Part shown: piece by piece, positions 49,761-62,907 of the stretch
Position numbering within the stretch: the stretch's first letter is position 1
Layout of the letters: each line of letters starts with the position of its first letter
Source: Clostridia bacterium
GTDB lineage: Bacteria > Bacillota > Clostridia > Christensenellales > Aristaeellaceae
Direction: 5' to 3'
NCBI GenBank assembly: GCA_017431005.1
Contig: JAFRLY010000052.1
Span: 1-64,000 of the forward strand
DNA: 64,000 nt
Notes under the pieces: generated by a model
Seen by the model: only the letters and a program-made list of their open reading frames with translations
What the model was told of the DNA's origin: nothing
The model's database searches: none
Program-made: the position numbers and the translations under genes

Positions 49761-51284
49761 TCATTCTGCGGGATACCGGACGCCCCAGACGCTTTCATTC
49801 CCGCCAACTGCGGTAAAAACAATGACCTCATTCTTCGCGTCATCCTGCATTCTGCAGAGCACCCCGCTGTATTCCTTCCCGTCAAGTGTCAGATGCAGGA
49901 ACGCGGTGCCGTCAGTCAGTGCCCAGGAGCCGGAGAGATCCTTTCCCCCGATACTCCCGTCTTCCCGAAGATACAGTACCATCGGCTCCGCGATCTGATC
50001 GTTGATCAGGATACCCTGGTTGATGACGTAGTAGCGCCCGGGAACATCCTTCGGGTCAAAGGCAGCCGGTATATCCTCTCCCCGGGTGGTGTACGGCAGC
50101 AGGCAGGGCCAGCCCTCCTCATTGACGCCGTACTGCTTCACCTGGGGAGTGTGTCTTTCTGAATTGTTGTTGAACCGGGTATGATAGCATACGTAGCGCT
50201 TGCCGTCGGACCCGATCATGGCGCTGTTGTGCCCGGTGGCCATATAGGCGGTCCGCACAGAGGGCAGAATATAGTTGCCGGAAAGCTTCAGCCCGTAGCG
50301 GAAATGGGAGATGGTGCCGGGGTGTTTCCCGTTCATGTCCTCGTAATCCCCGTCCGGGGTGCGGGAACGGAAAACCCGGATCTGATAACCGCCGTGGGCC
50401 GCCAGGCCTCCGTAGGAAACGAAAAGATAGTACCAGCCGGCGGCCGCGTCATAAAGAATGTACGGCCCCTCCATGGACTGGTGGTTTCCGCCCATGAGCT
50501 TTTTGCCGAAGTATGGGTCGATGCCGTTTTTCTCATCCGCCTCCGGATGGATGACCAGTCCTGTTGCGGGATCCAGCTCCAGCAGGAAGATGCCGCCGGA
50601 CCAGGAGCCGTATACCATCCACAGCCGGTGATTTTCATCATAGAACACAGCCGGATCCAGCGCGTTGGGATAATCGTTGTAGTTGTAGGTTCCCGCTGAA
50701 TTCAGATAGTGCTTTGAAATCCATTCCTCATCCGCATACTGTGCCACATCCGTCGCCTGAATCGTGTTCCGGTCAAAGCCGGAGCAGATCAGCGCCCCCT
50801 GCCAGATATAGGGACCCTCTATGCTGTCCGCAATCCCGAAACAAAGGTTGGATGCGTTCCAGGTGGAGGATGTGCAGTAATACATCATGTATTTCCCGAG
50901 CGTATCGTTGTAAATCACGTCCGGCGCCCAGACATGATACCCTTTGTCATCCGTCGGGATCACGCTTTTGGGGCCGCCGGCGTAATCAAATACATGGGAG
51001 TCCTCGCTGAAGATATTGCCCCATACTTTGTTGTTCGGCAGATATCCGTCCGCCCTCATGACCCAGGTGCGCAGGTCGTCGGATACCGCGGCGGTCATAT
51101 GCGTTCCGAAAATATAGTATTTTCCTTCCGCCTCCAGGATGGAGGGATCGTGCACCGCGGCCCGGGACGTCACGATACCAGCCGGCACATCCTTCCAGTC
51201 CTCCGTATAGTCCTCCGCGGCAGAGGAACTGAAGACGGATAACAGCACAGCAGCACTCAGGATCAGGGACAGCAGTCTCATCAA
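49761..51284 (-). CDS. Secreted GH43 endo-arabinanase
   Basis: A 507-residue GH43 enzyme with a signal peptide (about 1-23). The five-bladed propeller carries Asp46 (HDPSIL, base), Asp210 (LDPAVFYD, pKa modulator) and Glu272 (SMEGPYIL, acid). A C-terminal beta domain (about 400-507) is like that in AbnB-type endo-1,5-alpha-arabinanases. No sortase signal or transmembrane anchor. It is the only obviously secreted hydrolase of the long operon and the last gene of it, supplying arabino-oligosaccharides outside the cell. Confidence 0.88.
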   Translation of the reverse strand: MMRLLSLILSAAVLLSVFSSSAAEDYTEDWKDVPAGIVTSRAAVHDPSILEAEGKYYIFGTHMTAAVSDDLRTWVMRADGYLPNNKVWGNIFSEDSHVFDYAGGPKSVIPTDDKGYHVWAPDVIYNDTLGKYMMYYCTSSTWNASNLCFGIADSIEGPYIWQGALICSGFDRNTIQATDVAQYADEEWISKHYLNSAGTYNYNDYPNALDPAVFYDENHRLWMVYGSWSGGIFLLELDPATGLVIHPEADEKNGIDPYFGKKLMGGNHQSMEGPYILYDAAAGWYYLFVSYGGLAAHGGYQIRVFRSRTPDGDYEDMNGKHPGTISHFRYGLKLSGNYILPSVRTAYMATGHNSAMIGSDGKRYVCYHTRFNNNSERHTPQVKQYGVNEEGWPCLLPYTTRGEDIPAAFDPKDVPGRYYVINQGILINDQIAEPMVLYLREDGSIGGKDLSGSWALTDGTAFLHLTLDGKEYSGVLCRMQDDAKNEVIVFTAVGGNESVWGVRYPAE

Positions 51285-51319: not shown

Positions 51320-53491
51320 TCAGTCTTTTGTAAGCGTGAACACCCGGGTTTTCTCCGGGTGATCCGCGTATCCCGTCGAAATCTCAAATGCTCCGGGTTC
51401 GGAAACATACCGGCATTCATAATCCCAAAAGCGCAGCTGTTCCTCCGTCACGTCAAAGGTCACCTCAGCGGTTTCACCGGGCTTGAGGAAGACCTTTTTA
51501 TAATCAATCAGCTGCTGCACCGGCCGGACGACAGAAGCGGCCCTGTCCCGCAGATAAAGCTGCACAACCTCTTTTCCCGCCCTCTCTCCGGCATTCCGGA
51601 CTGTAACAGTCACCTGCAGCGTTTCATCCGGGCGGATCGTTTCCCGGCTCAGCGTCAGATCCAGCGTCTCAAAACGTGTATAGCTCAGCCCGTGGCCGAA
51701 GGAATACAGCGGCAGGTTCGGTGAATCCAGATAGGAGCTCGTAAAGGGGAATACGCCGGAATCAGGCTGCGGTTTCGGCCTGCCGGTGTTCATCCGGTTA
51801 TAGGGCAGCGGGCACTGTCCCACACTTCTCGGGAATCCCGCTGAAAGCTTCCCGCAGGGATTGGCTCTTCCGAAAAGCAGCCTGGCTGCCGCGCTGCCCG
51901 CCTCTGTGCCGGGATACCACATCTCCAGAACAGCCGGTGCGATGGCATCCAGCTCCGTCAGCGCCAGCGGACGGCCGTTAAAGAGCAGCACCGCTGTACG
52001 CGGGTTGGCAGCCAGCACCCTGCGTGCCAGCTCCATCTGCGGTCCCGGCAGGCAGAGATCCGCCCGGCTGCGGCCTTCCCCGCTGTCGTTCTCGGGTTCA
52101 CCCAGTGCCAGAATCACGGCCTCCGCCTCCCGGGCAGCCGCAACCGCCCGTTCGATTCCGGAAATATCCGTATCTCCGATCTCCGCGCCGCAGCCCCGTT
52201 CTGTAATCACTTCCAGAGCGGGCAGCATGGCTTTCAGGCCCTCCGGAAGGGTTACCGCGTCCTTCCAGGCTCCCGGCCTGCTCCAGAATCCCACCAGATG
52301 GCGCTCCTCCGCGAAGGGGCCGATCAGCGCCACCTTCCGCAGTGTCTCCGGGAAGGGCAGAATCCCGTCGTTTTTAAGCAGCACAGCGCTTTCCTCCGCC
52401 GCTCTCCGGGCGATCTCCCGGTGCTCCGGGCAGAGGTAGATTTCCCTTTCCTTAGCTTCATCCGCGCCGTGATAGGGGTTTTCAAACAGGCCGAGCTCAT
52501 TTTTCAGCTCCAGCACACGCAGCACCGCTTTGTCCAGGGCTTCTTCGGACACGGTCCCTTCCCGGACCAGCTCCGCCAGATGCAGGTAATAGGCATTCTG
52601 CACCATATCGATATCACATCCGGCAGCCATCGCCAGCCGGACGGCATCCTTCATGTTCTCCGCCACGCCGTGGGCCACCAGTTCTCCCACCGCGTTATAG
52701 TCGCTGACAACAACGCCGCTGAAACCCCACTCCCCGCGCAGCACCTGATTCATGAGCCAGCGGTTTGCCACCGACGGAATGCCGTTCAGGGCGTTGAACG
52801 AAGGCATTACCAGACGTGCTCCGGCGTCCACGCAGGCCTTGTATGCCGGCAGATAGCTTTCGCGCAGCTGCCGTTCGGACATATCCACCGTGTTGTAATC
52901 CCGTCCGCCCTCCGGTGCGCCGTATCCCGCATAGTGTTTAACGCAGCAGGCAATATTGTCTTTCCGGCTCAGGTCGTCTCCCTGTGCTGTCCGCACAAAG
53001 GCGGCGCCCATCCGGCTGTTGATCAGCGGCTCTTCGGAGTTTGTTTCCAGGATCCGGCCCCAGCGCGGATCCCGGGCAGTGTCGACCATCGGATTGAAGG
53101 TCACATGCACGCCGCATGCGGCTGCTTCCTTCCGGGCCATATCCGCGCATTCCGTCATCAGGCCGTCGTCAAAGGAGCAGCCCATGGCAAGGGGAATGGG
53201 ATAGGTTGTGCGCAGCCCGTGGATCACGTCCAGCATCAGCAGCAGGGGAATCTTATGGGGATCCGCCGCCAGATGCTTATCCTGCAGGGCTCTCGCCTGA
53301 GCGGCATCCTCAAAGGTCAGCACGCTCCCGATCACCCGGTTCAGTTCCTCTGCAGGAAGTATTTCGCCGTCCGGGCCTGTGATATCCATTTTGTTTTCAA
53401 TAAACTGTCCCGCGTTGCACTGAACCAGCTGCCCCACCTTTTCCTCCAGTGTCATGGAAGCAAGCAGCTTTCCGAGTTTCTCCTCTCTCAT
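51320..53491 (-). CDS. GH3 beta-xylosidase/beta-glucosidase
   Basis: A 723-residue GH3 enzyme in canonical order: TIM barrel (about 10-320) with nucleophile Asp264 in GVVVSDYNAVGE and KHYAGYGAPEGGRDYN (185-200), sandwich domain (about 370-570), and FnIII-like domain (about 630-715). The length and the GGRDYN sequence are common in BglX-type enzymes, but there is no signal peptide, so it acts on imported sugars. Confidence 0.92.
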   Translation of the reverse strand: MREEKLGKLLASMTLEEKVGQLVQCNAGQFIENKMDITGPDGEILPAEELNRVIGSVLTFEDAAQARALQDKHLAADPHKIPLLLMLDVIHGLRTTYPIPLAMGCSFDDGLMTECADMARKEAAACGVHVTFNPMVDTARDPRWGRILETNSEEPLINSRMGAAFVRTAQGDDLSRKDNIACCVKHYAGYGAPEGGRDYNTVDMSERQLRESYLPAYKACVDAGARLVMPSFNALNGIPSVANRWLMNQVLRGEWGFSGVVVSDYNAVGELVAHGVAENMKDAVRLAMAAGCDIDMVQNAYYLHLAELVREGTVSEEALDKAVLRVLELKNELGLFENPYHGADEAKEREIYLCPEHREIARRAAEESAVLLKNDGILPFPETLRKVALIGPFAEERHLVGFWSRPGAWKDAVTLPEGLKAMLPALEVITERGCGAEIGDTDISGIERAVAAAREAEAVILALGEPENDSGEGRSRADLCLPGPQMELARRVLAANPRTAVLLFNGRPLALTELDAIAPAVLEMWYPGTEAGSAAARLLFGRANPCGKLSAGFPRSVGQCPLPYNRMNTGRPKPQPDSGVFPFTSSYLDSPNLPLYSFGHGLSYTRFETLDLTLSRETIRPDETLQVTVTVRNAGERAGKEVVQLYLRDRAASVVRPVQQLIDYKKVFLKPGETAEVTFDVTEEQLRFWDYECRYVSEPGAFEISTGYADHPEKTRVFTLTKD

Positions 53492-53547: not shown

Positions 53548-54480
53548 TCAGATGCCTAGCGCGGCAAACACCGCAAATCCCGCGATGGCAATCAGTGTGG
53601 ATACGGAAAGTGCGGAGGAAACGTACACCCGCTGATCCGGCTCGTCCGCGAATACCGGCAGCACGAAAGGCGGCGGCAGAATAAAGATCACGTTGACCGC
53701 GGAGGTCAGGTCCGCCTCCGGCCAGAACAGGCGCAGCAGCGCCAGGAACGCAAACCGGAGAATCACCATGATTCCCAGCCGCACGGCAGCCACCTGCAGC
53801 GTGGGCTTCCAGGGAATATCCCTGAATACCAGATCGTAGCCGATGGTCAGCAGAATGATCGCGCCGGTCGGTGCGGAAATGAAGTCCGTGCAGGCGTCCA
53901 GGATTCCGCTGATTCCTGACGGGATCAGCCGCTGGTAGAGGCCGGTTGCTCCCAGCAGAATACCGCCCGCGATCGCAAAGATAATCGGTGAAAGCACCAT
54001 TTCACGGAGGAGCTGCCTGCCGTTCGCCTGCTGTTTCCCGTCCAGTCCCAGCAGAATTTTATACAGCGTGAATACGAACAGCACCTGGCCCAGGTCGACC
54101 CGCGCGAACTCGCTGATCCGGGCTGTTCCGTAAAGCATCTGGAACAGGGCATACCCCAGCATGCCCGCCTCAAAGCCGGTCGTCAGGAACGGCACGAAAC
54201 GGGACTGCATATGAAACAGCTTTGCCGCAAGCTTTCCCAGCGCCCAGGCCGCGACGCACACCAGGAACATCAGCAGCGGAACGGCAACATCCATGAAGGT
54301 GTACCGCATCGTCGCGAACGCGTTCAGCAGCACCGCGGGCAGGGCAATATTGACGACTACGGTCTTCAGGGCATCGATTCCCTCCCGGGAGATCAGGCTG
54401 CGCTGCCTGCAGATCATGCCGATGCCCAGCATGAGCATCACAGGCAGAATGGTCTTCAGAACCTCCGTCATCTGATTCAT
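53548..54480 (-). CDS. AEC-family transporter
   Basis: A 310-residue auxin-efflux-carrier-type membrane protein with about ten helices. The first half has MLGIGMICRQRSLISREGIDALKTVVVNIALPAVLL, typical of the family, and the helix break near PTGAIILLTIGYDLV is also characteristic. AEC carriers move organic anions such as malate. Its start overlaps the end of the ankyrin-GH43 gene by 4 bases. An exporter of fermentation or deacetylation acids would fit, but this is inference. Confidence 0.88.
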   Translation of the reverse strand: MNQMTEVLKTILPVMLMLGIGMICRQRSLISREGIDALKTVVVNIALPAVLLNAFATMRYTFMDVAVPLLMFLVCVAAWALGKLAAKLFHMQSRFVPFLTTGFEAGMLGYALFQMLYGTARISEFARVDLGQVLFVFTLYKILLGLDGKQQANGRQLLREMVLSPIIFAIAGGILLGATGLYQRLIPSGISGILDACTDFISAPTGAIILLTIGYDLVFRDIPWKPTLQVAAVRLGIMVILRFAFLALLRLFWPEADLTSAVNVIFILPPPFVLPVFADEPDQRVYVSSALSVSTLIAIAGFAVFAALGI

Positions 54481-56339
54481 CCGGCAGTCTCTCCTCTGTT
54501 AAAATACACCGTATGGTTCAGGAAGGCAGCCTCACCTGCCCCGACCGCTGCCAGCCCCAGCAGTGCGCCGGTAAAGCGTTTCCCTCCGGTGATGCCTTCA
54601 TCGCTCAGGTAATCCGCCTCGAGGGAGCAGAGATATTCCCATCCGCCGCCGGACCGGATCATCAGCTTCCGCAGCACGCCGTTTCCGGACACCGCCAGCT
54701 CAGCGGTTACTCCGGTAACCGTCATAAGCTCCCGAACAGTTCTCTCTTCTCCGGTCTGCTCCGTGACTTCCACCTGCAGCCCGTACCCGGCTCTGCGGGC
54801 GGTGAAAAGGAAGAAGCTTCGTTCATCATAGTAGCCGGCGATACCGGCGCTGCTTCCCTCTTCACAGCCGGAAAGATCCGCCTGAACGGACTGGAAGAAA
54901 TCCAGCTCTTTCTGCCTGCACAGCAGCAGGCTGCATGGACCGGCTCCTGCCGGGTCCGCTCCGCATCGCAGGGTCATCCGCGCTCCGATGATCCGGGTAA
55001 AGCTGCGGGGATCTGTCCGCGGCGCGATCCAGTCCTCCTGCTCCGGTCCGGGAATTTCCTCCGCATTTCCGAAGGGTGCCCGCTGCAGGCAGCTGGGGCC
55101 TTTCAGCCGGTTGACCATCGGCCAGCCGTCCGCTGTCCATTCCATCGGGTCCAGGGCTGTCTCCCGGCCGAGCACCGTTTTTCCGCCTGATTTTCTGCCG
55201 CACAGATAAACCATGTACCACCTGCCGTCCGGGGTGGATACCGGTTTGCCGTGGCCGCTGCGCTGAATATACGCGTCCGGCTTTTTTCTGCCGAGGATGG
55301 GATTGAAGGGGCAGGCTTCATAGGGTCCCTTCAGGCTGCGGCTGCGCATCACGGTTTCCATGTGGCCGTCTCCCGTTCCGCCCTCCGCCAGGAACAGATA
55401 ATACCATCCGTCCTTTTTCAGCAGATGCGGGCCCTCCGGCTTGATCCGGGCATCCCCGAAAAAGATCATTTCAGGTTCGGAAAGGATTTCCCCTTCCTCG
55501 CTGATTTCGGCCATAATCGCGCCGGGGTTCAGCAGGATATACCGCCTGTCTCCCTCCGCGAACAGGGAGGGATCGATCCCGTCCAGCGGCAGGAACTTCG
55601 GTTCCGCCCAGGGTCCCTCCGGCTTTTCCGCCCAGGTCAGCATCTGCAGCCGGTAGGGCGGGGTGTTGCGGCGCAGCGTCGCCACAACCCAGAACCGGCC
55701 GTGCCACCAGGAAATATCCGGCGCCCAGTAGCCGAACCCGCCCGGCAGCCCCTGCAGTCCGGATTTTTCCAGGTTATCCGCCGCGTGTCCGATGAGCCGC
55801 CAGTGTACCAGATCCCTGGAGTGAAAAACCGGCAGCCCCGGAAAGCAGACGAAGGAGGAATTTACCAGGTAATAATCCTCCCCCACCCGCACCACGGAGG
55901 GATCCGGATGAAATCCGCGGATCACGGGATTCCGGTAGCAGTCCTCCAGCCTGAAGCCCAGGCGTTCCGTCAGCCAGGCGTACCCCGCGGGGTTCTCCGC
56001 CCCTGCCGCCTCGTCCAGCGGCGTCCGCCCGGCGGCGTCGCCCTCCATCGGATCCAGGCCGGCCACATCCATGGCAAAAGCGATGGTCTCCGGGTCTCCG
56101 GAGGCTGCCGCGTCATGCAGCAGGGTTCTTCCGTCCGCGTCTGTCTCCATGGAGTAAAGATGATAATGCGTGAACAGGTCCTTCAGGATCTCCGCCTGCC
56201 CCTTTCCGGCAGCCAGCCGGGTTATCTGCAGGCGGTCGTCCTCAGAGGCGTCCTCCAGCTCCCCTGCCAGAAACAGCTGCCAAAGCGCATCGCTGTCCCC
56301 GTTCTCAACAGCCCGAAGCGTTTCCTTCAGTTTTGTCAT
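54477..56339 (-). CDS. Ankyrin-repeat/GH43 glycosidase fusion
   Basis: A 620-residue protein. Residues 5-125 contain about three ankyrin-like repeats, the clearest being DADGRTLLHDAAASGDPET (67-85) and DAAGRTPLDEAAG (101-113). The GH43 catalytic propeller (about 136-410) has Asp146 (HPDPSVV), Asp256 (GIDPSLF) and Glu302 (KPEGPHLL). A C-terminal beta-sandwich (about 440-615) follows. No signal peptide, so cytoplasmic. Ankyrin repeats normally bind proteins, and I know of no characterised fusion to GH43; a scaffold for an intracellular hydrolase complex is possible. The gene overlaps both neighbours by 4 bases. Confidence 0.88.
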   Translation of the reverse strand: MTKLKETLRAVENGDSDALWQLFLAGELEDASEDDRLQITRLAAGKGQAEILKDLFTHYHLYSMETDADGRTLLHDAAASGDPETIAFAMDVAGLDPMEGDAAGRTPLDEAAGAENPAGYAWLTERLGFRLEDCYRNPVIRGFHPDPSVVRVGEDYYLVNSSFVCFPGLPVFHSRDLVHWRLIGHAADNLEKSGLQGLPGGFGYWAPDISWWHGRFWVVATLRRNTPPYRLQMLTWAEKPEGPWAEPKFLPLDGIDPSLFAEGDRRYILLNPGAIMAEISEEGEILSEPEMIFFGDARIKPEGPHLLKKDGWYYLFLAEGGTGDGHMETVMRSRSLKGPYEACPFNPILGRKKPDAYIQRSGHGKPVSTPDGRWYMVYLCGRKSGGKTVLGRETALDPMEWTADGWPMVNRLKGPSCLQRAPFGNAEEIPGPEQEDWIAPRTDPRSFTRIIGARMTLRCGADPAGAGPCSLLLCRQKELDFFQSVQADLSGCEEGSSAGIAGYYDERSFFLFTARRAGYGLQVEVTEQTGEERTVRELMTVTGVTAELAVSGNGVLRKLMIRSGGGWEYLCSLEADYLSDEGITGGKRFTGALLGLAAVGAGEAAFLNHTVYFNRGETAG

Positions 56340-57691
56340 GCTTTCTCCTCCGCTTTGCGGTATCCGCTGGCAAAGCCCTGGTATCCGCCTGTCACAGGGC
56401 CGCTGGAACAGCGGCTCTGCACTGTCGCCCGGTTTTCGCGGATATGAATCAGCATGTCAAATCCGCAGGGCGAATCCCCGACGGCGAAGCACCGGACCCG
56501 CAGCAGCCCATCCTCCAGCCATCCGGCGGATATGAGCGCAGGCACCTCCGGCCATCCCGGGAAAGCGGTTTCCAGAATTTCTCCTCGCCGGAAGGGAATG
56601 GCCGCGTCCCCCCTGGTGTTCTCCAGCCGGACGCAGTCCCGATCCATCCGCAGATGTTTCAGCCCCAGGGCGTTTCCCTCCGGGAAGCAGTATTCCCCTT
56701 CCGCAGTGCCGGCAATCTCCGCACGGTCCTCCAGCGGCCGCACCGCCAGGTTCAGGCGGACCGGCGCCGTATCCTCCGTTCCGAGGTAAGGATACACTTC
56801 ATCGAAAAACGCGTTGTAAATCCGCTGCACGCCCTGGGGATCCAGCCGCGTGTCCGCAATAGTGGACAGTACCGCCTGCTTCTCCGGACAGATAACTGCC
56901 AGCTGTCCGCCCATGCCGTACATGGCCCATCCGGTCCGGACGCGCCAGCACTGCCATCCGTAGCCGTACCGCTCCTCTTCCTTGTCCTGCAGTACGGTTT
57001 CAATATGCTTCCGCTGCATTTCCTCAACGAACCAGCCGGGAATCAGGCCTCTGCCTCCGTCCGCCAGGCACAGGGCAATCCGGTGCATATCCCGCAGGCT
57101 CATGCACAGCCCGGTACCGCCCTGGCAGCAGCCGGAGGGATCCCGCAGCCAGAACCGCGGATCCTCGCATCCCAGCGGCTTGAACAGCCGCTCCTCCAGG
57201 AACTCCATGACCTCCTGCCCGCTCAGCCGCCGGACCAGCGCCGCCAGCACCTGGCTGTTGCCGGTATCATACGCGAAAACGGTTCCCGGCTCATGATCCG
57301 CAGGCGTACGGAAGAACGCCTCCGCCCAGTTTTCGTCGGTGCCTTCCCGGTAGGCAGTTTTGCTGAAGCAGGTCGCCATCCGCAGCATATCCCGGATTTT
57401 CAGCCGTTTCACCCGTTCATCCGTCTTCTCGGTAATCCAGTCCCGGAAGAAATCGGCGATCAGGCTGTCCAGGGTGAGCTTTCCGTCATCAATCAGCATC
57501 CCGATGGCGATGCCGGTCAGCGTCTTGCTGACGGAATACAGCCTGTGCGGTTTTCCTTCCCGCATCGGCGCATAATAAGCCTTCGCCTTTTCTTCCCCAT
57601 TCACAGACAGGATAAATCCGTACAGGTTCACATCCTCCCGTGCCAGGCGATCCGTAAAACACCGGACTCTGTCAGCCAGCCTTCCGTCCAT
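56336..57691 (-). CDS. Beta-lactamase-fold serine hydrolase
   Basis: A 451-residue class-C-like serine hydrolase. The SxxK motif is Ser53-Val-Ser-Lys56, and a Tyr141-centred YDTGNS takes the place of YxN. The final third (about 330-451) is an added beta-rich domain. No signal peptide. Within this operon a carbohydrate esterase role (removing acyl groups from imported oligosaccharides) is more likely than beta-lactam hydrolysis, but this is unproven. Its stop overlaps the ankyrin-GH43 start. Confidence 0.85.
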   Translation of the reverse strand: MDGRLADRVRCFTDRLAREDVNLYGFILSVNGEEKAKAYYAPMREGKPHRLYSVSKTLTGIAIGMLIDDGKLTLDSLIADFFRDWITEKTDERVKRLKIRDMLRMATCFSKTAYREGTDENWAEAFFRTPADHEPGTVFAYDTGNSQVLAALVRRLSGQEVMEFLEERLFKPLGCEDPRFWLRDPSGCCQGGTGLCMSLRDMHRIALCLADGGRGLIPGWFVEEMQRKHIETVLQDKEEERYGYGWQCWRVRTGWAMYGMGGQLAVICPEKQAVLSTIADTRLDPQGVQRIYNAFFDEVYPYLGTEDTAPVRLNLAVRPLEDRAEIAGTAEGEYCFPEGNALGLKHLRMDRDCVRLENTRGDAAIPFRRGEILETAFPGWPEVPALISAGWLEDGLLRVRCFAVGDSPCGFDMLIHIRENRATVQSRCSSGPVTGGYQGFASGYRKAEEKA

Positions 57692-57721: not shown

Positions 57722-59191
57722 TCAGTCTTTCACTTCTGTGAACCGGGCGTAAAGGAAATCCGCGTATCCGCCCCAGACACCGCTGCGGTTCAGGCAGAAG
57801 ATGCCCGGCCGGGCGGCGGTCCATCCGCCTGCAGCCATCGGACAGGCATCGCCGATCTCCTGCCAGACCTCCCCCGGCAGGGCATAACCGAAGCGCATTT
57901 CTCCTGCTCTCACCCGCATCCGTATACGGATTTCCTCCCCGCCTGCGGGCGCTTCCGCCAGCACCGTTTCCCGGATCCGTTCCGGAATGCTGCGGCTGTA
58001 TTCCGTGATATCGCCGCGGATCAGACGGATCCGTCCGTCCTCCAGGCACAGATAATGGTAGGGATAGCCGATCATCCCGATCCCGCAGGCATCCCCCGCC
58101 TGCGGGGCAAAGCGCACGGATGTCTCCATGTCAAAATCATAGCTCTGCATCAGCTGGGAGAGGAACTGGCCTGCCTCAAACAGCGTATCCGCCGGCGCGG
58201 CATAAAGTCGCAGTCCCGGCTTCATTGCCTGATACCAGGCCGGGTCCGGATTCGCCTGCCACTGCCACTGCAGCCCCAACCCTTCTCTGAACGTGTCTGA
58301 GGTGGGAATGCTCATCGGACATTCCGGCAGCCCGGTATCTCCCTCCGCCACCGGCTCCCCGGCCCGGCCCATGACCGGCCATCCGCTGCTCCAGTCCACC
58401 GGCTGCAGATGCGGCACCCGGCCGTATACGCCGATATCCTGAAAATGGATAAACCAGTCCCGGCCGTGCCCGTCGTCAAACCAGGCGCCCTGGTGCGGGC
58501 CGTTGACCGGCGTGCTTCCCTGTGCAAGCACCGTCCGGGCCTCATAGGGACCCAGAACATTCTCCGACCGCATGGCCAGCTGGTACCCCGGCTTTACGCC
58601 GCCCGCGGGGCACATGATCCAGTAGGTCCCGTTCCGCTTGTACCACTTGGGGCCCTCCACGGTAACATCCCCGTGATCCGCACCGCTGTAGACCAGCACG
58701 CCCTTGTCCAGCACCTGCAGCCCGTCCGGGCTCATCTCATGGGCATACAGAATATTGTTGATTCCGCAGCGGCTGGCAGCAAACCCGTGCACCAGCCAGG
58801 CCCGCCCGTCTTCGTCAAACAGCGGGCAGGGGTCAATCCATCCGCTGACATCCTTTACCCAGTGGCAGTCCCACCTTCCGGCCGGATCCTCCGCCGTAAA
58901 GGCAAACAGCCCTTCATCCGGCATACAGACATAAACGTAGAACAGCCCCTGATGGTACCGAAGACTCGGTGCCCAGGTGCCGCATTTGTGAGCCGGTTTC
59001 CGGTAACGTTCAAAGGGCAGATGATCCGCGGCATAGCCGGTCAGCTCCCAGTGAACCAGATCTTTTGAATGCAGGACCGGAATTCCCGGCACATAGGTGA
59101 AGGAGGAGGAAATCATGTAAAAGTCCTCACCCACCCGGATCACGTCCGGATCCGAGTAATCCCCCCGCAGAATCGGATTCTGATAGCGCAT
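57722..59191 (-). CDS. GH43 beta-xylosidase/arabinofuranosidase
   Basis: A 489-residue GH43 enzyme with catalytic Asp14 (SDPDVI), Asp120 (WIDPCPLF) and Glu179 (VEGPKW) in a propeller domain (about 1-300), followed by a beta-sandwich domain (about 310-485), the XynB-like architecture. The start at 59191 has AAAGGA upstream. No signal peptide, so it hydrolyses imported xylo- or arabino-oligosaccharides. It is the first enzyme gene after the ABC importer. Confidence 0.92.
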   Translation of the reverse strand: MRYQNPILRGDYSDPDVIRVGEDFYMISSSFTYVPGIPVLHSKDLVHWELTGYAADHLPFERYRKPAHKCGTWAPSLRYHQGLFYVYVCMPDEGLFAFTAEDPAGRWDCHWVKDVSGWIDPCPLFDEDGRAWLVHGFAASRCGINNILYAHEMSPDGLQVLDKGVLVYSGADHGDVTVEGPKWYKRNGTYWIMCPAGGVKPGYQLAMRSENVLGPYEARTVLAQGSTPVNGPHQGAWFDDGHGRDWFIHFQDIGVYGRVPHLQPVDWSSGWPVMGRAGEPVAEGDTGLPECPMSIPTSDTFREGLGLQWQWQANPDPAWYQAMKPGLRLYAAPADTLFEAGQFLSQLMQSYDFDMETSVRFAPQAGDACGIGMIGYPYHYLCLEDGRIRLIRGDITEYSRSIPERIRETVLAEAPAGGEEIRIRMRVRAGEMRFGYALPGEVWQEIGDACPMAAGGWTAARPGIFCLNRSGVWGGYADFLYARFTEVKD

Positions 59192-59251
59192 TTTGATGTT
59201 ATCCTTTCCCGCTCCGCTCGGCGGAGCCTGTCCGGCTTCATTATAAAGCAG

Positions 59252-59280
59252 AAGGCGCAGATGGTACAAGCCCATCTGCG
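59252..59280 (-). other. Hairpin between permease and GH43 genes
   Basis: Arms 59252-59262 and 59270-59280 are perfectly complementary. Downstream on the minus strand there is only a weak T-rich stretch, so it may reduce rather than stop read-through into the hydrolase genes. Confidence 0.6.
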
Positions 59281-59310: not shown

Positions 59311-60222
59311 TTATTCCTTGACCGCGCCGATATTGATGCCCTTCACGAAATACTTCTGCAGGAAGGGATACAGGATCATGAACGGCAGGATCGCGGTGAT
59401 GATGCAGGCGTTGCGGATCGTGTTTTCCGTCGCGCCGCCGACTGCCTCAGGCAGGTCAGAGGACTGCATCATGTCGCGCAGCTTCATCTGGAAGTTGTAC
59501 AGATCACGGTTGGTGATGTACAGCTTGAAGTTGGTGTAGTCATTCCAGTAGGCCACTGCGAACATCAGACCGATGGAAGCCAGGGCCGCCTTGGACAGGG
59601 GCAGCGCGATGCGCCAGAACATGCCCATGGGCGTGCAGCCGTCCAGGTCCGCGGATTCGAACAGGGACTTCGGAATACCCTCAAAGAAGTTCCGCATCAG
59701 CACCAGGTTGTACACGTTGATGGCGGGCAGCAGGATCGGTCCGAGGGGATTGTCGGTCAGGTGCACAGCGCGCATGACCAGGTAGCTCGGGATCATACCG
59801 CCGGAGAAAATCATCGTGAACAGCAGCAGGTTCGCGAACAGGGTACGTCCGGGCATATCCCACTGGATCAGCACATACGCGCCCATGGTGCTCAGCAGCA
59901 GACCGATGAAGGTTCCGGCCACCGTCGTGTAAATGCTCACCCACAGCGGCTGCAGCAGACTCTTGTTGGTGAAGATGGAAACATATCCGTCCAGACCGAA
60001 CTTTGTGGGCAGCAGCTTCATGCCGTAACCGGAGGTCAGATCCAGAGAGTCAATCAGCACCTTCCAGATCGGGACCAGGATGATCAGGCACACCAGGATG
60101 AATACAAAGCCGTTGATGAAATGGAAAACCGTATACTGGGATTTCGCTTTATTCAGGTGAGGGGGCGGCGGCACTTCCACGCCGGCGGGAGTAATGTATT
60201 TCAGTTCAGCTTGCTTTGCCAT
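59311..60222 (-). CDS. CUT1 sugar ABC permease (LplC-like)
   Basis: A 303-residue permease with six predicted helices, the EAA loop FESADLDGCTPMGMFWRIALPLS, and the C-terminus GAVKE. A cytoplasmic N-terminal extension has EVPPPPHLNKAK. It lies 17 bases after its partner permease. Confidence 0.93.
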   Translation of the reverse strand: MAKQAELKYITPAGVEVPPPPHLNKAKSQYTVFHFINGFVFILVCLIILVPIWKVLIDSLDLTSGYGMKLLPTKFGLDGYVSIFTNKSLLQPLWVSIYTTVAGTFIGLLLSTMGAYVLIQWDMPGRTLFANLLLFTMIFSGGMIPSYLVMRAVHLTDNPLGPILLPAINVYNLVLMRNFFEGIPKSLFESADLDGCTPMGMFWRIALPLSKAALASIGLMFAVAYWNDYTNFKLYITNRDLYNFQMKLRDMMQSSDLPEAVGGATENTIRNACIITAILPFMILYPFLQKYFVKGINIGAVKE

Positions 60223-60239: not shown

Positions 60240-61190
60240 TTACACGATGCCGCGTCCGCGGACCTTCTTGGACGCCCAGTTGCAGATCAGCATCAGTGCC
60301 AGACCGACCAGAGAACGGAACAGACCGACCGCAGTGGTGTAGCCGTAGTCAGCGGACGCGCCGGCATTGAATGTCTGATAGTAAACGTAGGTCTGCAGCA
60401 CGTTGGTCGCGCGGCGGACGGAGTCGTTCTGCAGCACGAAGACGCTCTCGAACAGGTTCATGATCTTGGCCAGGTTCAGGATCAGCACCGTGATGATGGT
60501 GTTGCCCAGTGCCGGAAAGGTCACGTACCACATTTTCTGCCAGCGGCCCGCGCCGTCGATGGAAGCGGCTTCATAGATGCCCGGGTCGATGCCGGTCAGC
60601 GTGGCCATGAAGATGATGGTCTGCCAGCCGGTTTCACGCCACAGGTTGATGATATAGTACCAGGTACGCCAGTGTCCCTTGTCTGCCAGATAGTAGATGC
60701 CCTCATCGATGATGTGCAGCTTGATCAGCACCTGGTTGATCAGACCGTTCGCAGAGGGAGCCAGCAGCAGGGAGAACACGGAAGCCGTCACAACCCAGCT
60801 CATGAAGTGAGGCAGATAGATGATTGTCTGGCTCAGCTTCTTGAACTTGATGGAAATCATTTCGTTCAGAAGCAGGGAGATGATGACTGCCATACCGGTG
60901 TTCAGCACCAGCTTGACCACGGAGAAAACGATGGTGTTCCAGAAGGAGGTCGAGAACTGACTCTGCTTGAACAGCTTCTCAAAGTTCGCCAGGCCGACCC
61001 ACTGGGGATCGCCGACGATCTTCCAGGAATAGAAGGCGTACCGGATGCCGAACATAGGCGCGTAATGGAATACGGCCACAAAGATCAGCACCGGAATGAA
61101 CATCAGATAGAAGCCCCAGTATTTCTTCATTCTCTGGCCCAGGGGCTTTTTTCCGACCCGGATCGTTCCGTTGGACGTGGAAGAAGCCAT
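60240..61190 (-). CDS. CUT1 sugar ABC permease (LplB-like)
   Basis: A 316-residue permease with six predicted helices and the EAA loop YEAASIDGAGRWQKMWYVTFPAL. AAAGGG precedes the ATG. A GC-rich hairpin separates it from the binding-protein gene. Confidence 0.93.
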   Translation of the reverse strand: MASSTSNGTIRVGKKPLGQRMKKYWGFYLMFIPVLIFVAVFHYAPMFGIRYAFYSWKIVGDPQWVGLANFEKLFKQSQFSTSFWNTIVFSVVKLVLNTGMAVIISLLLNEMISIKFKKLSQTIIYLPHFMSWVVTASVFSLLLAPSANGLINQVLIKLHIIDEGIYYLADKGHWRTWYYIINLWRETGWQTIIFMATLTGIDPGIYEAASIDGAGRWQKMWYVTFPALGNTIITVLILNLAKIMNLFESVFVLQNDSVRRATNVLQTYVYYQTFNAGASADYGYTTAVGLFRSLVGLALMLICNWASKKVRGRGIV

Positions 61191-61309: not shown

Positions 61310-62782
61310 TCAATTCAGGGCGTTCAGGCTCTCAACGATCGCGTCGGACAGTTCCTGTCCGCCTTCATCAACGAAGGTCTTGTAGCCTTCCTCAACGCTG
61401 ATGGAGCCCAGGGCAACGTCAGCAATGATCTGGCTCTTGATGCTGGTCAGTTCACCGTTCATCTCGCTCAGCTCGGGCGTCGCGGGAACGATGGAGGCCA
61501 GGCGGGAATTCGCGTTGAACAGCTCGGAAGCAGCCTTGGCTTCGGGCGCTACGCTCATGGGATCGTCATAGCTCGGATCGAAGCCCGCCAGAGCCAGCAT
61601 CGGATCGATGTGGTTCTTGGTGTACAGGGTGCCGGCCTTTTCCAGGTTCTCCTTCATGTGGAACTGGCCTTCTTCATAGGTGGCTTCCTTCTCGGTGCCG
61701 GCCAGCACGGTTTCAGCGGCCCGGCTCCAGTGGGTGCCTTCAGCGCCGTACTCCCACAGCATCTGGGTGTCACCGCCGTCCAGCATGGTGTCGATGAAAG
61801 CATCGAAGACTTCCTGAGGATTCTTGCAGGCAGCGGAGATGCACCAGACCGGAGGTACGCGGTCATAGTACAGCGGGTTGCCTTCCAGGGGCTTCAGGGC
61901 GACCAGCTCGCCGTCACGGCCGTTGGCTTCCAGGTTGGTCTTCAGGTTGGTTGCCCAGGTGCCCGCCCAGTAGGTGAACACGCCGAACTTGTCGTCATAG
62001 AACTTGTTGCGGGCGTCAGAGGTCTTGTTGGTCAGGGTTTCCTTGTCGATCAGGCCTTCCGCTACGGCGTCCTGAATCCGCTGCAGAGCTTCCTTCATGT
62101 TGTCCTGGCAGAAGCCGTCCACCCAGGTGCCGTCTTCCTGCTGTACAAAGAAGGGATAGGCATCCTGATAGAACTCAGGCAGATAGTTGACGAAGGGAGC
62201 TTCGTTGCCCACGAATCCGGCGGCGGAAACCGCATAGGTGCCGAACTTGTCCTTGAAGGCTCTGCACATGGCGATGTAATCGTCATAGGTGGTGGGAGCT
62301 TCCAGACCGCAGGCATCCAGCCAGGCCTTCTTCACGTAAGTGACGCAGCCGTTTCCGCGGGTGGGGGCAAAGCCGTAGAGCTTTCCGTCAATCTTCAGGC
62401 CGTCGAACACGATGTCGCCGGTGAACCGGCCGCTGTTCTTGGTCTTGCTGTTTTCCCACGCTTCGGTCATGTCCCACAGGACGCCGGCCGCGGCGTAGTC
62501 AGCATAGTAGGTGGAGCTCAGGATCAGTACATCGGGCCAGTCGCCGGAGGAGATCCGCTGCTGCATAACGTCATAGTAGGCGCTGTGGTCCGGCTGAACG
62601 AACTCAATGTCATATCCGGGATGCAGTTCTTCCCAGCGGGCTTCAATGGCATCGCGGCCGTTGTTCTGATCCAGAACAGTACCGTCAACCATCACGACGA
62701 TTTTCAGTGCATCCGCAGACGCAAAAGAGATGAGACTCAGGCACAGCGCCAGAGCCAGTACCAGGGCGGTTAACTTTTTCAT
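61310..62782 (-). CDS. Sugar-binding protein of CUT1 ABC importer
   Basis: A 490-residue binding protein with signal peptide MKKLTALVLALALCLSLISF (cleavage near ASA); a cysteine inside the hydrophobic stretch is not in a lipobox context. The fold text (YDIEFVQPDHSAYYDVMQQR, DWPDVLILSSTYYADY) is typical of oligosaccharide-binding CUT1 proteins. The start at 62782 follows GGAGGG. It heads the nine-gene operon running to 49761. Codon bias is strong, suggesting high expression. Confidence 0.9.
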   Translation of the reverse strand: MKKLTALVLALALCLSLISFASADALKIVVMVDGTVLDQNNGRDAIEARWEELHPGYDIEFVQPDHSAYYDVMQQRISSGDWPDVLILSSTYYADYAAAGVLWDMTEAWENSKTKNSGRFTGDIVFDGLKIDGKLYGFAPTRGNGCVTYVKKAWLDACGLEAPTTYDDYIAMCRAFKDKFGTYAVSAAGFVGNEAPFVNYLPEFYQDAYPFFVQQEDGTWVDGFCQDNMKEALQRIQDAVAEGLIDKETLTNKTSDARNKFYDDKFGVFTYWAGTWATNLKTNLEANGRDGELVALKPLEGNPLYYDRVPPVWCISAACKNPQEVFDAFIDTMLDGGDTQMLWEYGAEGTHWSRAAETVLAGTEKEATYEEGQFHMKENLEKAGTLYTKNHIDPMLALAGFDPSYDDPMSVAPEAKAASELFNANSRLASIVPATPELSEMNGELTSIKSQIIADVALGSISVEEGYKTFVDEGGQELSDAIVESLNALN

Positions 62783-62907
62783 TTTTTTCCCTCCACTTTT
62801 TTTATCCGGCAGAACGCCGGTGCCAAAGCGGGCTTCCCCGCTGATAGCCTGATTCAGGGACACAAACCTGTAAAAACCAGGAACATAAACGCAAATGTGC
62901 TAACGTT

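Follow-up and report, generated by a model that had tools for sequence, protein, structure and literature searches.

In the window (the whole 64,000-nucleotide stretch of DNA analysed here), one gene encodes a protein in which four ankyrin repeats run directly into a GH43 glycosidase. We tentatively propose that the ankyrin part of this protein, Ank-GH43, serves as a rigid module for assembly, carried by an intracellular, exo-acting GH43 that is probably an arabinofuranosidase, both activity and binding being predictions from sequence. For the repeats, an assembly role is the most likely one, and a purely intramolecular role ranks next. One would not expect ankyrin repeats on an enzyme that degrades carbohydrates, and bacteria of the rumen and gut, cultured species among them, have retained them. 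The architecture itself is surely visible in sequence databases already; its spread, its fixed joint and its link to a tandem GH43 appear to be unreported so far.

Domain layout and predicted structure

The features of the gene and of its operon are collected in Table 1. By Pfam, Ank_2 is followed by GH43 and then by GH43_C2, a C-terminal domain absent from the first-pass annotation, which had described about three ankyrin-like repeats and a GH43 propeller with all three catalytic residues, in a protein lacking a signal peptide. The repeats are real. Ank_2 matches residues 42-120 with an E value of 1.6e-9 (38.7 bits against a curated cut-off of 27.3) and residues 1-128 match ankyrin proteins of the PDB (best E 1.2e-13), so the ankyrin assignment stands well above chance; the Pfam Ank and Ank_4 profiles match under their own cut-offs. 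Their number has to be corrected, since four helix pairs are modelled. The propeller was recognized correctly: the PF04616 match spans all of it (profile positions 1-288 of 288), and D146, D256 and E302, which we take to be the catalytic Asp/Asp/Glu of GH43, are kept in 64 of the 64 aligned homologues. Inspection by eye found no hydrophobic stretch at the N-terminus, in agreement with the reported lack of a signal peptide. In NCBIfam the protein falls under every curated cut-off.

Table 1. Ank-GH43, its domains and the neighbouring genes (positions within the window)
Feature	Position	Strand	Basis or remark
Ank-GH43 gene	54477..56339	(-)	620 aa, ATG start
Four ankyrin helix-turn-helix units, residues 2-127	55959..56336	(-)	AlphaFold helices, Pfam Ank_2, PDB ankyrin matches
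Joint of fixed length, from residue 124 to the catalytic D146	55902..55970	(-)	23 residues in 63/64 rows
GH43 catalytic propeller, residues 135-407	55119..55937	(-)	Pfam PF04616, E 1.4e-78
GH43_C2 concanavalin-like domain, residues 454-603	54531..54980	(-)	Pfam PF17851, E 5.9e-12
Serine hydrolase, beta-lactamase/esterase family (PF00144)	56336..57691	(-)	Stop overlaps Ank-GH43 start (ATGA)
AEC-type carrier (PF03547)	53548..54480	(-)	Start overlaps Ank-GH43 stop (ATGA)
Second GH43 + GH43_C2, ankyrin-free	57722..59275	(-)	Groups with relatives' tandem partner GH43s
GH3 glycosidase	51320..53491	(-)	Downstream of Ank-GH43
GH43 + GH43_C like extracellular endo-1,5-arabinanases	49761..51284	(-)	Below NCBIfam cut-off; signal-peptide-like start by eye
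ABC solute-binding protein (PF01547)	61310..62863	(-)	Upstream in gene order
ABC permease (PF00528)	60240..61190	(-)	Upstream in gene order
ABC permease (PF00528)	59311..60222	(-)	Upstream in gene order

AlphaFold models were obtained for the window protein (64-row alignment; mean pLDDT 94.9, pTM 0.93) and for a homologue from [Clostridium] fimetarium, L082 (57 rows; mean pLDDT 93.5, pTM 0.92). The window model has eight helices arranged as four pairs (2-12/16-24, 33-45/49-59, 73-80/83-92 and 107-112/117-127), with block pLDDT values of 91-98, and in both models the four N-terminal pairs run directly into the propeller. Modelling of the N-terminus, the check suggested with the first-pass annotation, thus bore out its ankyrin reading: residues 1-127 fold as ankyrin helix pairs, as do those of the homologue.

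The joint between the ankyrin part and GH43 hardly varies in length, being 22 residues in the one exceptional row, while the linker between GH43 and C2 (420-437) ranges from 15 to 61 residues across rows. About half of the windows of that size inside GH43, and a third of those inside the ankyrin part, are equally fixed. The joint is as fixed as windows within a fold and so resembles a piece of the fold more than a tether. The ankyrin part would then form a rigid extension of the propeller; we infer its packing and interface with GH43 from the global model confidence.

Spread, descent and conservation

In the window's family, 93 of 300 genomes match Ank-GH43 at E 1e-30, and 44 of the 93, the window's own included, match from residue 62 or before to residue 385 or beyond. 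At least 550 relatives were confirmed in public named genomes and the best 80 were retained as loci. All 80 match the ankyrin profile, L053 and L105 being broken or partial; the ranking was by similarity to the fused query, so that the share without ankyrin among the other 470 is not readable from it. The fusion is thus retained in homologues, both in these best-matching public loci and within the window's family, as the docking idea of the first-pass annotation had presupposed. Across the phylum (398 genomes) nine match at E 1e-70: two with ankyrin, one of which is the window's own genome, and seven without. The fusion also occurs in non-metagenome records: Butyrivibrio proteoclasticus P18 and P6B7, other Butyrivibrio, [Clostridium] fimetarium DSM 9179, Lactobacillus rogosae ATCC 27753 and Clostridium sp. 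C2-6-12. The broken copy L053 is split across three frames; its assembly, RGIG4437, also contains the intact L044.

The ankyrin profile was also searched in 200 genomes of the family of a Lachnospiraceae member, of which 17 matched; it matches only once in 14 of 16 genomes, and the window's genome (85% complete) has one Ank_2 match. Among the loci examined, a GH43 follows the ankyrin part in L115 and L148-L161. We considered a docking module common to several enzymes and rejected it, a second enzyme with this ankyrin module being unseen in the examined loci. One frame, L176, has 270 residues without a Pfam match before its ankyrin part, probably an upstream open frame only.

For a tree, 70 rows were selected (41 fused, 18 ankyrin-free and 11 tandem partners) and analysed by a short search without bootstrap. 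The 41 fused rows form one clade (SH-aLRT 99) beside six ankyrin-free enzymes, and the simplest reading of this 70-row sample would be a single gain of the ankyrin part with zero losses.

Once gained, the ankyrin part has been retained under purifying selection. Median dN/dS over 10 disjoint pairs, taken as domain dN over whole-gene dS with dS near 1 in several pairs, was 0.20 for ankyrin, 0.08 for GH43 and 0.32 for C2; two of the 10 pairs gave high ankyrin values (0.73 and 0.49), at a whole-gene dS near 1. Mean pairwise identity is 0.34, 0.67 and 0.35, respectively. Conservation of the four repeats, counted from the N-terminus, is 0.35, 0.49, 0.61 and 0.47, highest in the third; the outermost repeat, the least conserved, is missing from two of the 64 rows.

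We assumed the contact positions to be those of designed ankyrin proteins and compared their conservation with that of the other non-structural positions. The means were 0.418 and 0.516 over all rows (permutation p 0.96), 0.562 and 0.604 in the window clade (p 0.76), and 0.475 and 0.613 in the remaining rows (p 0.98). A conserved recruitment face was dropped as a candidate, since the contact positions as a set average below the others. Of the contact-type positions, R71 and S80 alone stand out as well conserved.

Gene neighbourhood and the tandem GH43

In 28 of the 80 best loci an ankyrin-free GH43 lies on the same strand within 700 nt of Ank-GH43, 24 times upstream and four times downstream, a count that leaves out L053 and L105, whose flagged GH43 are pieces of Ank-GH43 itself. 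No adjacent GH43 was found in 52 of the 80; where each flank extends for 1.7 kb or more, the same holds for 41 of 68 loci, and two groups of loci, in unrelated contexts, have no GH43 neighbour. Among L148-L161, two repeat loci of the 80, and eight of the other 12 have the partner beside or joined to Ank-GH43.

In two genomes the pair is fused in frame as GH43-C2-Ank-GH43-C2 (L163, 1126 aa; L164, 1178 aa), and in both the ankyrin part sits between the first enzyme and the second. These fusions sit on separate branches of the tree (supports 91 and 90, under the starred level). Even where partner and Ank-GH43 are a single chain the ankyrin part persists, so it is not needed merely as a tether. 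Distances within 27 tandem pairs correlate with r 0.88, which none of 2000 permutations reached but which is obtainable from shared descent alone. In the window a serine hydrolase stands between the partner GH43 and Ank-GH43. In view of the tandem and fused arrangements elsewhere, this second GH43 of the operon is a plausible partner of Ank-GH43.

Two further loci have related arrangements. L165:5003-8447 is laid out like L163 and L164 with a frame break between GH43 and Ank-GH43, and is possibly a decayed or misread fusion. A 1071-aa frame from the window's genus, L166 (G242:C42:79500-86500), joins the partner GH43 to an ankyrin-free sister enzyme.

The coupling of Ank-GH43 to both of its neighbours, described in the first-pass annotation, is seen in the ATGA overlaps at 56339-56336 (serine-hydrolase stop, Ank-GH43 start) and at 54480-54477 (Ank-GH43 stop, AEC start). 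The serine hydrolase is directly upstream in four close loci as well (L037, L038, L040 and L041; Pfam on L040), which makes it a possible partner in that lineage. In NCBIfam it comes closest to 3-succinylated cholic acid synthase (E 7.3e-30), although its 103.9 bits fall far below the cut-off of 800.

Apart from GH43 and ABC genes, the neighbours differ between lineages. In one subgroup (L044-L048, L050, L052 and L061) an FMN oxidoreductase, a gene that by eye is short-chain-dehydrogenase-like and an FAD enzyme are nearby, mostly with a Gfo/Idh gene next; neither ABC permease clusters nor a second GH43 are listed in these loci. In L092:7065-9770 and L113:5668-7802 the start of Ank-GH43 overlaps, again as ATGA, the end of an anti-sigma-like gene of the zf-HC2 type (91 aa), preceded in L092 by a sigma-70-type gene; the same gene clusters precede Ank-GH43 in L076 and L085.

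Proposed role and relation to known systems

Ank-GH43 would be a cytosolic exo-enzyme acting on oligosaccharides that the operon's ABC transporter brings in. Its activity is most likely that of an alpha-L-arabinofuranosidase, perhaps combined with beta-xylosidase activity. The substrates may be arabinan or pectin side-chain oligosaccharides that are trimmed in the cytosol. Hints to such substrates come from the arabinanase-like GH43 in the window operon and from Lachnospiraceae loci, where single representative neighbours match GH28, GH88, GDSL-esterase and TIM-barrel families. Xylosidases are numerous among the solved relatives, alongside arabinofuranosidases, which makes arabinofuranosidase a guess. 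The four ankyrin repeats would be a rigid extension that holds the enzyme in place within a defined assembly; its partner there would be the tandem GH43 in loci that have one, and elsewhere another copy of Ank-GH43. A more specific picture, possible though rather doubtful, is a widespread two-enzyme machine inside the cells of gut Firmicutes in which the rigid ankyrin stack positions the tandem GH43 against Ank-GH43, both exo-enzymes attack one and the same branched oligosaccharide after its import, and some lineages have fused the pair permanently. If the repeats do pair two glycosidases, the result would be a simple assembly in the cytosol that breaks down fragments of pectin or arabinan.

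Protein binding is a common function of ankyrin repeats, and the idea put forward from the sequence at first was that they anchor an intracellular hydrolase complex, perhaps with the operon's other GH43, its GH3 or its serine hydrolase. What survives of it is a plausible specific partner, the tandem GH43, which neighbours Ank-GH43 in 28 of the 80 loci and shares one reading frame with it in two genomes. A general hub that recruits serine hydrolase, GH3 and GH43 alike we consider unlikely. The start and stop overlaps with the neighbours do favour co-production, and R71 and S80 are conserved as a docking surface might be, but the contact set as a whole is no better conserved than other positions, the joint is short and fixed, genomes mostly have a single such module, and the genes around it, GH43 and ABC genes aside, change with the lineage. 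No result points to the GH3 as a docking partner, nor to the AEC carrier. Much of this also fits an ankyrin stack that needs no partner, packing on the propeller so as to stabilize it or to narrow the entrance to the active site: the joint is fixed, the models of the whole chain are confident, the contact set is unconserved and the contexts are diverse. Such a purely intramolecular role, second in rank, is possible, if on the improbable side. Ankyrin-free sister enzymes manage without the module, and the in-frame fusions to the neighbouring GH43 suggest partnership.

That another cytosolic protein reads the state of the enzyme through the repeats would account for the overlap with the anti-sigma-like gene in L092 and L113, for the sigma-70-type gene in L092 and for the same clusters before Ank-GH43 in L076 and L085. 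We regard this sensing role as quite improbable: the zf-HC2 cluster occurs in only four of the 80 best loci, one of the two zf-HC2 genes tested is just under the Pfam cut-off, and catalytic residues intact in every aligned homologue point to an enzyme. It is hardly credible that the fusion is an artefact of assembly or annotation, or a neutral relic. Most copies do come from metagenome assemblies, but it is present in the named isolates (Butyrivibrio, [Clostridium] fimetarium, Lactobacillus rogosae and Clostridium sp.), forms one clade in the tree and is under purifying selection.

We found no description of an ankyrin-GH43 enzyme in the open literature, most subscription journals being outside its scope. 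The ankyrin literature found, to the extent that its text was accessible, deals mostly with fungi, plants and animals. In the accessible parts of PMC5217386 and PMC2914790 the main text is without the word 'ankyrin'; in those of PMC6801697, PMC12483993 and PMC9123166, which name bacteria, it is used for other proteins or in references only; and the passages available from PMC7809346 and PMC4967831 contain no ankyrin-GH43 enzyme.

By both sequence and fold, the best PDB match to Ank-GH43 is BlXynB, a GH43 of Bacillus licheniformis (PDB 6MS2/6MS3; E 4.4e-106 over residues 132-603, 39-40% identity, TMt 0.87-0.88), for which, unlike Ank-GH43, no ankyrin match was reported. The next solved relative by sequence is BoGH43A, the Bacteroides ovatus alpha-L-arabinofuranosidase (PDB 5JOW), with the two-domain GH43 layout seen in the part of its description available to us (PMC4967831); it matches in fold with 33% identity, and its sequence match starts only at residue 134. 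All 50 Foldseek matches listed are GH43 or xylosidase/arabinofuranosidase, and none of them is described with ankyrin repeats. The nearest relatives in the 70-row tree, sister GH43s of other Bacillota (L116-L120), are ankyrin-free: their match begins at profile position 122-129, at most 13 residues from the start of the frame, and L116 shares GH43 + GH43_C2 with Ank-GH43 (Pfam on L116). Bacterial ankyrin-rich ORFs such as those in G697 and G705 have ankyrin repeats in common with Ank-GH43, but they have many of them, and none of the six further ORFs of this kind has a glycosidase domain (two are cut by the locus end and one has a DUF4253). Cellulosome-type docking places one module on several enzymes, unlike the ankyrin module of Ank-GH43 in the genomes searched, and sets a flexible linker between the catalytic and docking parts, whereas the joint of Ank-GH43 has one and the same length in 63 of 64 rows.
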